Below the pieces are notes generated by a model. The model saw only the letters and a list, made by a program, of their open reading frames with translations, was not told the DNA's origin and did not search any database. 64,000 bases of DNA, taken from positions 62,001-126,000 of the forward strand of contig SSMU01000030.1 in NCBI GenBank assembly GCA_004799545.1, written 5' to 3'. Shown piece by piece: positions 14,350-59,469 of this stretch. This stretch comes from Phenylobacterium sp. (lineage in GTDB: Bacteria > Pseudomonadota > Alphaproteobacteria > Caulobacterales > Caulobacteraceae). A program made the translations under genes and the position numbers. How positions within the stretch are numbered: the stretch's first letter is position 1; every line of letters begins with the position of its first letter.

Positions 14350-15357
14350 TTGAAGACGCGAGCGGTCGGGGCGGCGCTCGCCGCGATGCTCTGGGCTGCC
14401 GGGACCGCCGCGGCGGCCGCGCCACCCATCGCCACCTTCCGGGACCTGCCCGGCTGGACCGCCGAGGACCACGCCGCCGCCTACGCCGCCTACCGCGAGA
14501 CTTGCGGGGCCTCCAGCGACCCGGCCATGGCGCGGATCTGCCGGCTGGCGCGCGCCACAGGACCGCTCGACGAGGCCGCCGCCCGTCAATTCTTCGAGAG
14601 CAACTTCACCCCCGACCCGGTCACCACCCAGGGCGTGCTGACCGCCTATTTCGCGCCCGAGTACCCGGCCCGGCGCCGGCCGGAGGCCGAGTTCACCGCC
14701 CCGGTGCGCCCCAAGCCTGCCGACCTCACCGCCGGTGGTGGCGCTTACGCCGACCGGGCGGCGATCGAGGGGCGGACCGCCGAGGACGCCCTGGCCTGGA
14801 TGCGGCCGGAGGACCTGTTCCTGCTGCAGGTGCAGGGCTCGGGGACCCTGCGCTTCGAGGACGGCCGCAAGATGAAGGCGCTCTACGCCGCCACCAACGG
14901 CCGGCCCTACCTGGCGATCGGCGGGCCGATGCACGCCCAAGGCCTGCTCTCCGGCGAGGTCTCGGCCGACGCGATCCACGCCTGGCTGGCCACCCACCGG
15001 GGACCCGAAGCCCAGGCGGTGATGCAGCTCAACCCACGCTATTCGTTCTTCCGCCTGAGCCGCGACGATGGCCGCCCTCCCTCCGGCTCGGCCCATGTGC
15101 CGCTGGTCGCCGGCCGGGCGCTGGCGATCGATCCCGCCTACCACGCCTATGGCGAGCTGCTGTGGATCGCCGCCGACCGGCCGGTGCTGCCGGGCGCCCG
15201 GCCGAGCTACCACCGCCTGGCGATGACCCTGGACACCGGCGGCGCGATCCGCGGCCCCGCCCGCGCCGACCTCTACCTCGGCGAAGGCGCCGCCGCCGGG
15301 ACCGAGGCCGGCCGCGTGCACCACCGGCTGACGCTCTGGCGGCTGGCCCCGCGATGA
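14350..15357 (+). CDS. mltA: membrane-bound lytic transglycosylase A (3D domain)
   Basis: FTPDPVTTQGVLTAYFAPEYPARRRP...FLLQVQGSGTLRFEDG...ALDTGGAIRGPARADLYLG-like 3D region. Confidence 0.92.
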   Translation: MKTRAVGAALAAMLWAAGTAAAAAPPIATFRDLPGWTAEDHAAAYAAYRETCGASSDPAMARICRLARATGPLDEAAARQFFESNFTPDPVTTQGVLTAYFAPEYPARRRPEAEFTAPVRPKPADLTAGGGAYADRAAIEGRTAEDALAWMRPEDLFLLQVQGSGTLRFEDGRKMKALYAATNGRPYLAIGGPMHAQGLLSGEVSADAIHAWLATHRGPEAQAVMQLNPRYSFFRLSRDDGRPPSGSAHVPLVAGRALAIDPAYHAYGELLWIAADRPVLPGARPSYHRLAMTLDTGGAIRGPARADLYLGEGAAAGTEAGRVHHRLTLWRLAPR

Positions 15358-15917
15358 AACGGCCGCTGAAACCCGACGAGCTGCGCGTCTGGGGCCTGGT
15401 CGCCGCGACGGTGCATCCGTTGCCGGGGCGCGAGACGCCGAGCGTCCCCTCCCCTCAAGGGGAGGGACAGACGGCGAAGCCGTCAGGGTGGGGCAGTAAG
15501 GTCCAGGCGCCGACCTCACAGTCCCGTCCCACACTTCCTCACCCGGACCGAGCTGCGCTCGGTCGTCCCTCCCCCCAAGGGGAGGGAAACCGATCGATCG
15601 AACCCCGCCGCAAGCACCGCATCGCCAAGGAGCGCGAGGAGATCGGCGGCCGGCTCGACCTGCACGGCCTCGACCAGGATCGGGCCCGCGCCGTGCTGGA
15701 GGCCTTCCTGCGCCGCGCCTGGGACGAGGGCTACCGCGCCGTCCTGGTGATCACCGGCAAGGGCGTGCAGGGCGACGGGGTCCTCAAGCGCCGGACCCCG
15801 GAATGGCTGGCCGCGCCGCACCTCAGCGCCATCGTCGCCGGCATCTCCGAGGCCCACCGCCGCCATGGCGGGGAGGGCGCGCTCTACGTGGCCCTGAAGC
15901 GCAAGCCGAAGAGCTGA
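15354..15917 (+). CDS. Smr/MutS2 domain protein with repeat-derived internal segment
   Basis: C-terminal GGRLDLHGLDQDRARAVLEAFLRRAWDEGYRAVLVITGKG; codons about 31-78 derive from a dispersed repeat. Confidence 0.88.
   Translation: MKRPLKPDELRVWGLVAATVHPLPGRETPSVPSPQGEGQTAKPSGWGSKVQAPTSQSRPTLPHPDRAALGRPSPQGEGNRSIEPRRKHRIAKEREEIGGRLDLHGLDQDRARAVLEAFLRRAWDEGYRAVLVITGKGVQGDGVLKRRTPEWLAAPHLSAIVAGISEAHRRHGGEGALYVALKRKPKS
15446..15588 (+). repeat. composite palindromic repeat, family 1 copy A (intragenic)
   Basis: CCCTCCCCTCAAGGGGAGGGACAGACGGCGAAGCCGTCAGGGTGGGG...ACTTCCTCACCCGGACCGAGCTGCGCTCGGTCGTCCCTCCCCCCAAGGGGAGGGAAA. Confidence 0.88.
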
Positions 15918-21260: not shown

Positions 21261-21407
21261 TTCCCTCCCCTGGAGGGGAGGGACAGACCGCGTAGCGGTC
21301 AGGGCAGGGAAGTGTGGGCTAAGCGCCGAGCTCGGAGCTTGATCGTGACTTCCCCACCCGTCCGAGGCTGCGCCTCGTCCCCCCTCCCCGGAACGGGGAG
21401 GGAAGGG
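21261..21407. repeat. composite palindromic repeat, family 1 copy B
   Basis: TTCCCTCCCCTGGAGGGGAGGGACAGACCGCGTAGCGGTCAGGGCAGGGAAGT...ACTTCCCCACCCGTCC...GGGAGGGAAGG; fills DUF2244/hslU gap. Confidence 0.92.
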
Positions 21408-29563: not shown

Positions 29564-29707
29564 CTTCCCTCCCTTAATGGGGAGGGGGCCGAGCGCAGCG
29601 AGGTCGGGTGGGGGAGTCGCGACGGGGCTCCGACTCTATCGCCCAGCCCACACTTCCCTACCCTGGCCGCTTCGCGGCCTGTCCCTCCCCACCAGGGGAG
29701 GGAAGTC
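29564..29707. repeat. composite palindromic repeat, family 1 copy D (opposite orientation to A/B/G)
   Basis: Reverse complement reads CTTCCCTCCCCTGGTGGGGAGGGACAGGCCGCGAAGCGGCCAGGGTAGGGAAGT...CTCCCCCACCCGACCTCGCTGCGCTCGG...; fills fabB/ClC gap. Confidence 0.92.
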
Positions 29708-57588: not shown

Positions 57589-57629
57589 GTCCCGTTGACG
57601 CTGGGGGCCGCGCGGCCTATCCCCCGGCC

Positions 57630-57706
57630 ATCCTGCGTGACTGGCGAATGAGGTGGGCGACCACCGGGGAGCGCGGGACCATACGACCGCCGCTCGCCTG
57701 GGCATT
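57630..57706 (+). ncRNA. ZTP riboswitch (pfl motif) candidate in purH leader
   Basis: GCGTGACTGGCGAATGAGGTGGGCGACCACCGGGGAGCG...CCGCTCGCCTGGGCA: conserved CGTGACTGGCG, CCACCGGGGAGCG and GCCTGGGCA blocks. Confidence 0.85.
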
Positions 57707-57732
57707 TCCTTCGAACCTCCGAGGAGAATGCC

Positions 57733-59325
57733 GTGCCCGCCGCCCCTGATTTCCCCGCCGCCCCCGACCGCGCGCCCGTCAAACGCGCGCTGATCTCCGT
57801 CTCCGACAAGACCGGGCTGATCGAGGCCGCCCGCGCGCTCGCCGCCATGGGCGTCGAGCTGGTCTCCACCGGCGGCACCCGCAAGGCGATCGCCGAGGCG
57901 GGCCTGGCGGTGAAGGACATCGCCGACCTCACCGGCTTCCCGGAGATGATGGACGGCCGGGTGAAGACCCTGCACCCCATGGTCCACGGCGGCCTGCTGG
58001 GCGTCCGCGACGCGCCGGCCCACAAGCAGGCGATGGACGCGCACGGGATCGGCGGGATCGACCTGGTCTACGTCAACCTCTACCCCTTCGAGCAGACGGT
58101 GGCCGGCGGCGCCGACTATGCGACGGCGGTGGAGAACATCGACATCGGCGGCCCGGCGATGATCCGCTCGGCGGCCAAGAACCACGGCTATGTCGCGGTC
58201 TGCACCGAGATCGCCGACCTCCAGGAGGTGCTGGCCGAGCTGACCGCCTCGGGGACCACCGGCCTCGACCTGCGCAAGCGGCTCGCGGCCCGCGCCTATG
58301 CGCGCACGGCGGCCTATGACGCGGCGATCTCCACCTGGTTCGCCGCCGCGCTCGGCGAGGACTGGCCGCGGCGCAAGGCCTTCGCCGGCCAGCTCGCGCA
58401 GACCATGCGCTACGGCGAGAACCCCCACCAGGCAGCCGCCTTCTACCGCTTCGAGAACCCACGGGTCGGCGTCGCCACGGCGACCCAGTTGCAGGGCAAG
58501 GAGCTTAGCTACAACAACATCAACGACACCGACGCCGCCTTCGAGCTGATCGCCGAGTTCGATCCGGCCGCGGCGCCGGCCTGCGCGATCATCAAGCACG
58601 CCAACCCCTGCGGCGTGGCGACCGGCGGCTCGATGCTCGAGGCCTACGAGCGGGCGCTGGCCTGCGACCCGGTGAGCGCGTTCGGCGGCATCATCGCCCT
58701 CAACCAGGCGTTGGACGTGGCCACCGCCACAAAGATCCTCGACCTGCTCACCGAGGTGGTGATCGCCCCGGCCATCGACGCCGAGGCCGCAGCCCTGTTC
58801 CGCAAGAAGAAGAACGTCCGCCTGTTGGTCACCGGCGGCCTGCCCGACCCGCTGGCGCCGGGCCTGACCTTCAAGTCGGTGTCCGGCGGCTTCCTGGTTC
58901 AGGGCCGCGACGACGCCCGCCTGACGCCGGCCGACCTCAAGGTGGTGACCAAGCGCGCGCCCACCGAGGCCGAGGTGCGCGACATGCTGTTCGCCTTCAC
59001 CATCGCCAAGCACGTGAAGTCGAACGCCATCGTCTACGCCCGCGACGGCCAGACGCTGGGCGTCGGCGCGGGCCAGATGAACCGCAAGGATTCAGCCCGC
59101 ATCGCCGCCCTCCGCGCCGCCGACTTCGGCCTCGACCTCAAGGGCTCGGCCTGCGCCTCGGAAGCCTTCTTCCCCTTCCCCGACGGCCTGATCCAGGCCG
59201 CCGACGCCGGCTGCACCGCGGTGATCCAGCCCGGCGGCTCGATCGGCGACCAGAAGGTCATCGACGCCGCCGACGAGCGTGGCCTGGCCATGGTGTTCAC
59301 CGGCGTGCGGGTGTTCCGGCACTGA
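57733..59325 (+). CDS. purH: bifunctional AICAR formyltransferase/IMP cyclohydrolase, GTG start
   Basis: [43 protein letters not shown]...[18 protein letters not shown]. Confidence 0.98.
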
Positions 59326-59469
59326 TTTCCCTCCCCCAGAGGGGAGGGACAGATCGCGCAGCGGTCAGGGTAGGGAAGTCACGATCAGGCTCCGACTCAG
59401 AGCCCGGCCTACGCTTCCCCACCCGACCTCGCTGCGCTCGGCCACCCTCCCATCGAGGGGAGGGAGACA
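59326..59469. repeat. composite palindromic repeat, family 1 copy G
   Basis: TTCCCTCCCCCAGAGGGGAGGGACAGATCGCGCAGCGGTCAGGGTAGGGAAGT...CTTCCCCACCCGACCTCGCTGCGCTCGGCCACCCTCCCATCGAGGGGAGGGAG; fills purH/GDH gap. Confidence 0.92.

Follow-up and report, generated by a model that had tools for sequence, protein, structure and literature searches.

The window analysed here, a stretch of 64,000 nucleotides (C24:62001-126000), belongs to a Phenylobacterium genome (G000) of 4.03 Mb that is 92% complete. It contains a gene for an Smr-domain protein (15354..15917, + strand; 187 aa, Pfam Smr match), orthologues of which were found in 100 of the 101 genomes of the genus. The gene opens with a segment that is kept in orthologues (MKRPLKPDELRVWGLVAATVHPLPGR; 15354..15431, +) and ends with an intact Smr domain (15654..15899, +; Pfam Smr, residues 101-182, 4.8e-22). 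Between these two parts lies a complete palindromic repeat of family A in frame 0 (15447..15586, +), which is read as PSPQGEGQ...RPSPQGEG over about residues 32-78. Sequence and family alignment place a left terminal hairpin at its start (CCCTCCCC-TCAA-GGGGAGGG; 15447..15466, +), which is followed by an internal hairpin (GACGGC-GAA-GCCGTC; 15470..15484, +). A right terminal hairpin closes the repeat (CCCTCCCC-CCAA-GGGGAGGG; 15567..15586, +), and after it come AAA, 7 nt, and ATCGAAC (IEP). The sequence and translation of this open reading frame given in a first-pass annotation were confirmed as written, and the span it assigned to the repeat (15446-15588) was correct within 1-3 nt (core 15447-15586, then AAA). 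Its claim that the repeat stands in frame, with an N-terminal segment ahead of it and the intact Smr domain after it, was borne out by the sequence, Pfam, and a profile HMM.

This HMM (145 columns) was trained on 23 intergenic copies of the same genome, leaving out the Smr and asparagine synthase copies. It scored the Smr copy at 99 bits (E 2.6e-29), and found nothing in shuffled controls and nothing significant in the uninterrupted Smr genes of the genus. Linkers are Pro/Ala-rich and GC-rich across the genus, and a Pro/Gly linker of such composition could in principle resemble the repeat by chance; a match over the entire model, not seen in uninterrupted genes or shuffled sequences, makes this hardly conceivable. 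A second objection is that the true start lies downstream and the repeat is untranslated. The codon-usage gene finder did begin the gene at 15693, and the codon usage of the repeat is poor, but we attribute that call to the foreign composition of the repeat and do not read it as evidence of a downstream start. Neither the repeat nor the stretch from its end to the GTG at about 15693 offers an ATG, GTG, or TTG in frame; this GTG lies inside the Smr fold, past LDLHG, so that a start there would cost the domain its first strand and the LDLHG motif. A full Smr domain thus needs translation through the repeat. In addition, the N-terminus (MKRPLKP..W..V..TVHP) is conserved genus-wide, and the frame is kept through every inserted copy. 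An annotation artefact is consequently very improbable; as judged from its sequence, the Smr copy of the repeat is coding, and a repeat-containing product is presumably made.

The repeat-derived segment had been described as a disordered linker whose mRNA carries strong hairpins in the middle of the coding sequence, and structure predictions agreed with both statements. For residues 31-80, an AlphaFold model (42 sequences in the alignment) gave pLDDT values near 44-56 without any secondary structure, a low-confidence coil beside a confident Smr domain in which most blocks reached 82-98. The RNA of the Smr copy was predicted to fold at -91.6 kcal/mol (z -6.4). The architecture of the repeat consists of two CCCTCCCC/GGGGAGGG hairpin ends and two inner hairpins within an overall fold, and for 13 of the 43 predicted pairs at least one copy has both sides changed with pairing kept. 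One such change, from C-G to G-C in the internal hairpin at 15470..15484, is private to the Smr copy (alignment A1, columns 31/40).

BLAST searches of the same genome gave 38 matches at E<=1e-3, corresponding to about 33 places. The unit is about 140 nt long, its ends are GC-rich hairpins with terminal inverted repeats (TTTCCCTCCCC...GGGGAGGGAAA), and full-length copies are about 69-79% identical. Gene ends were called with a simple codon-usage gene finder for which the window served as training set, and calls outside the window rest on this finder. By these calls, a gene 3' end is no more than 13 nt away from 24 of the 29 other non-coding copies, the usual distance past the stop codon being 2-7 nt, and 12 of the 29 occupy the space that separates two convergent genes. 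Three intergenic copies of the latter kind are present in the window, at the following distances from the two stop codons: 21263..21402 (+), 3 and 6 nt; 29567..29702 (-), 3 nt on each side; and 59329..59464 (+), 3 and 13 nt. Copies in the genome (loci L113-L139) and in the window often make up the entire gap between convergent genes, and in several of them the stop codon falls inside the first hairpin. At locus L135 (G000:C30:48168-51229), a membrane-like predicted ORF without Pfam match (784-1545) ends in a partial repeat that supplies its last residues and its stop codon. Locus L134 (G000:C24:283109-286674) carries two left half-elements (1501-1566 and 1999-2062), inverted and separated by about 430 nt, which may represent a longer, composite version of the repeat. 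The window also holds a ZMP/ZTP riboswitch aptamer (57627-57710, 59.7 bits) directly upstream of a long ORF at about 57733-59325.

The comparison of Smr orthologues yielded the uninterrupted form in near relatives. Among 83 distinct Smr linkers of the genus, 75 are 28-60 aa long (median 42) and hold no repeat, while the remaining eight (49-74 aa) are repeat-derived. The HMM of intergenic copies identified family A in six genes, those of the studied genome (OWN) and of L004, L006, L007, L008, and L013; in L005 and L021, this linker is occupied by other repeats, which have partial or low-copy counterparts at other places of the respective genome. Sister species with ordinary linkers exist for three of these genes (OWN/L009, L004/L010, and L006/L142). 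In all eight, the repeat begins 5-10 residues past HPLPGR (or its equivalent) and stops 2-3 residues before IEP, which indicates that the old linker was largely replaced. The first-pass description of a repeat inserted in frame was therefore right as to the frame and not as to a simple insertion, since the 28-60 aa linker of the relatives is mostly gone. A frameshift in smr of G011/J367 was set aside, as its linker holds no repeat and the assembly is apparently a long-read (canu) one.

A survey of the genome for further in-frame copies, suggested by the same annotation and limited to copies detected by BLAST, so that weak ones may be missed, found one more. It is located in an asparagine synthase gene (TIGR01536, 2.8e-110; L120/L196, G000:C25:124295-126106), between the glutaminase and synthetase domains. 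This linker measures 20-27 aa in the 51 genomes in which both halves were measurable, and is clearly longer, with in-frame repeats of several families, in about 27 of 101 genomes; all of the longer linkers that were read are in frame. Family A was detected there by the HMM in eight genomes and in both orientations, and uninterrupted linkers gave no hit. Two other families, assigned by eye as were all labels except A, occupy the same linker: family B in eleven genomes (multi-copy in G013, G051, G060, and G030) and family C (of the ATCCCGGCGAAAGCCGGGACC type) in three. A few further repeats are decayed or carry no family label. Every inserted copy read leaves the gene open. Across the genus, this linker (L196, L197-L220, L225) thus serves again and again as a landing site, and for repeats of several families.

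The number of insertion events was evaluated on phylogenetic trees, with the caution that many genomes of the genus are metagenome assemblies, in which binning may affect some tree positions. One tree was built from the conserved parts of MltA and Smr (46 taxa) and a second from Smr alone. On the MltA+Smr tree, the distribution of the repeat needs five changes, at least four of them forced by well-supported branches. The identical right-junction offsets hinted at a single ancestral insertion, which was rejected by AU tests: holding the six element-bearing smr genes as one clade cost 238 log units (p 8e-88) on MltA+Smr, and one clade was also rejected on Smr alone (p 3e-46). The tested set was defined by the trait and not by the tree, as the AU test requires. 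Rejection on Smr alone also argues against one insertion carried by transfer of smr. For the asparagine synthase linker, 16 state changes are needed on the tree, and at least eight are forced for presence versus absence (SH-aLRT support only). The repeat was found in 50 of the 101 genomes, and all 12 genomes with a family-A insertion in either gene are among these (hypergeometric P 1e-4).

These results bear on whether, in place of many independent insertions, a small number passed from one species to another through homologous recombination of the smr and asnB regions and later underwent gene conversion with local intergenic copies. The right junctions of four Smr copies have the same 7 nt between GGGAGGGAAA and ATCGA, and such alike offsets could reflect recombinational spread of fewer insertions; the left flanks of L004 and L013 are also similar (KAPAE(S/A)F). 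Furthermore, the Smr-only tree joins OWN with L004 (94/83), and these two may share one event. Against recombination as the general explanation stand the rejection of a single origin on both data sets, the presence of other repeat families in the same linkers, and the occurrence of family A in both orientations in asparagine synthase, and we regard it as unlikely.

The element was compared with known repeat systems. Rickettsia palindromic elements (RPEs) are palindromic repeats of roughly 100-150 nt that occur in frame in unrelated conserved genes as well as between genes (PMC2229807, PMC10969869). As the first-pass annotation proposed, and as these reports support, they are a precedent for the mode of action, and the likeness is one of mode of action alone, since the Phenylobacterium repeat was set beside them by description: it stands in frame in smr and asparagine synthase, for which uninterrupted orthologues exist. 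The Phenylobacterium case differs in that the host is of another order than Rickettsia, several repeat families reuse one linker across species, and most copies are intergenic. Phenylobacterium is, moreover, mainly free-living and GC-rich. The terminal inverted repeats recall MITEs. GTAG/CGTC REPs, which are mobilised by RAYTs, form hairpin pairs whose usual places are downstream of coding regions and in the gaps of convergent gene pairs. Some supply stop codons, and copies inside genes are also reported, for which flexible linkers were suggested to be neutral sites (PMC3733652). The Phenylobacterium repeat resembles them in lying downstream of coding regions, at a gene 3' end in 24 of 29 non-coding copies, whereas it is a longer composite of 140 nt and its own genome contains no RAYT (Y1_Tnp). 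Half-units of the repeat were found in many copies in Caulobacter sp. UNC358MFTsu5.1 and Root655 (G102 and G103; loci L226-L228), often as close inverted pairs, so that the 140-nt doublet may derive from a REP-like half-unit. Of six Caulobacter genomes, these two were the only ones with matches, all half-units, and the C. vibrioides OR37 genome gave no match.

Caulobacter CcrM-associated intergenic repeats (CIRs) are reported to be strictly intergenic and to have stops in all six frames (PMC2229807, PMC10969869). The Phenylobacterium repeat is likewise multi-copy, longer than 100 nt, and found in Caulobacteraceae, and many copies have GANTC near the centre (16 of 23 copies, often central), but the 19 sites observed, against 17.6 expected, are not above expectation from the repeat's own composition. 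It also has open frames (3 to 12 of the 23 intergenic copies per frame) and coding copies. By frames and location, and with CIRs compared by description, we rejected membership in this family. The RNA family Whalefall-1 (RF01762) was rejected as well: half of the element (15535-15588, minus strand) scored 34.6 bits (E 3e-7), below the gathering threshold of 37 bits, and none of 20 other copies reached that threshold. Whalefall-1 has been reported only from environmental sequence, and might itself be a repeat of similar type. The Phenylobacterium family thus resembles RPEs in its way of working, and is not a CIR by the criteria of frame and location.

As to mobilisation, Y1_Tnp/RAYT transposases are present in 21 of 101 congeners, and the repeat was not found beside the transposase in six loci examined. 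Being absent from the studied genome, at its 92% completeness, and not adjoining the repeat at those loci, RAYT/Y1 was rejected as mobiliser. No consistent target-site duplication was seen by eye in the flanks of the copies, and no strain-level empty site was found. Given that none of these three marks of transposition was found, we infer only that the element is or was mobile.

The reading we favour, with a probability of roughly 80%, is that of a REP/MITE-like palindromic element acting in an RPE-like mode and tolerated where a disordered linker takes an open frame. According to this proposal, a genus-level palindromic repeat of about 140 nt would spread as a mobile element, and would settle mostly directly past stop codons. 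Copies striking genes would mostly die, those at gene ends or in disordered linkers surviving. A copy that is open in frame in a flexible linker would be tolerated and translated as a low-complexity Pro/Gly/Ser/Arg linker, and it would persist as the old linker disappears, either through local replacement at insertion or through quick decay once redundant. In this view, the Smr and asparagine synthase linkers are tolerant sites that have received repeats of more than one family, repeatedly and independently in several lineages, and the insertions would be neutral. A more tentative idea, possible although doubtful, is that the two linkers are landing pads where unrelated palindromic repeat families are captured time after time as protein sequence across the genus. 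As the old linker is replaced and not just made longer, some mechanism of targeting or replacement would then act in addition to passive tolerance.

The repeat had also been called exapted. Reuse and tolerance are indeed seen; a single event is not, the origins being several and independent, and selection for a function is not indicated. An adaptive role of the linker or of the hairpin in the mRNA, such as slower translation between the segments or a Pro/Gly-rich nucleic-acid-binding tail of Smr, might account for recurrence at the same two linkers, for the strong RNA structure (z -6.4), and for the hairpin pairing that the Smr copy keeps through its private compensatory double change. That change may nevertheless predate the insertion, and the insertions share no conserved linker sequence: different families place different peptides at the same site, some copies, L004, L198, and L219 among them, have a decayed appearance, and most species have no repeat in the linker. 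We consider adaptation quite unlikely; the data point to tolerance and reuse.

Repeats inserted in frame, RPEs for example, have been described since 2000, and those of REPs are also on record; the recurrence of several families at one linker appears to be new. No paper on this repeat family was found in the literature searched, which was largely that accessible without journal subscription. It has been difficult to test whether such in-frame insertions are neutral or of use, as the majority are single and of old date. In Phenylobacterium, two linkers have been struck many times, by several families, and with uninterrupted sister species for comparison, which amounts to a natural replicated experiment, and such replicated sites bear on how mobile repeats turn into protein sequence.
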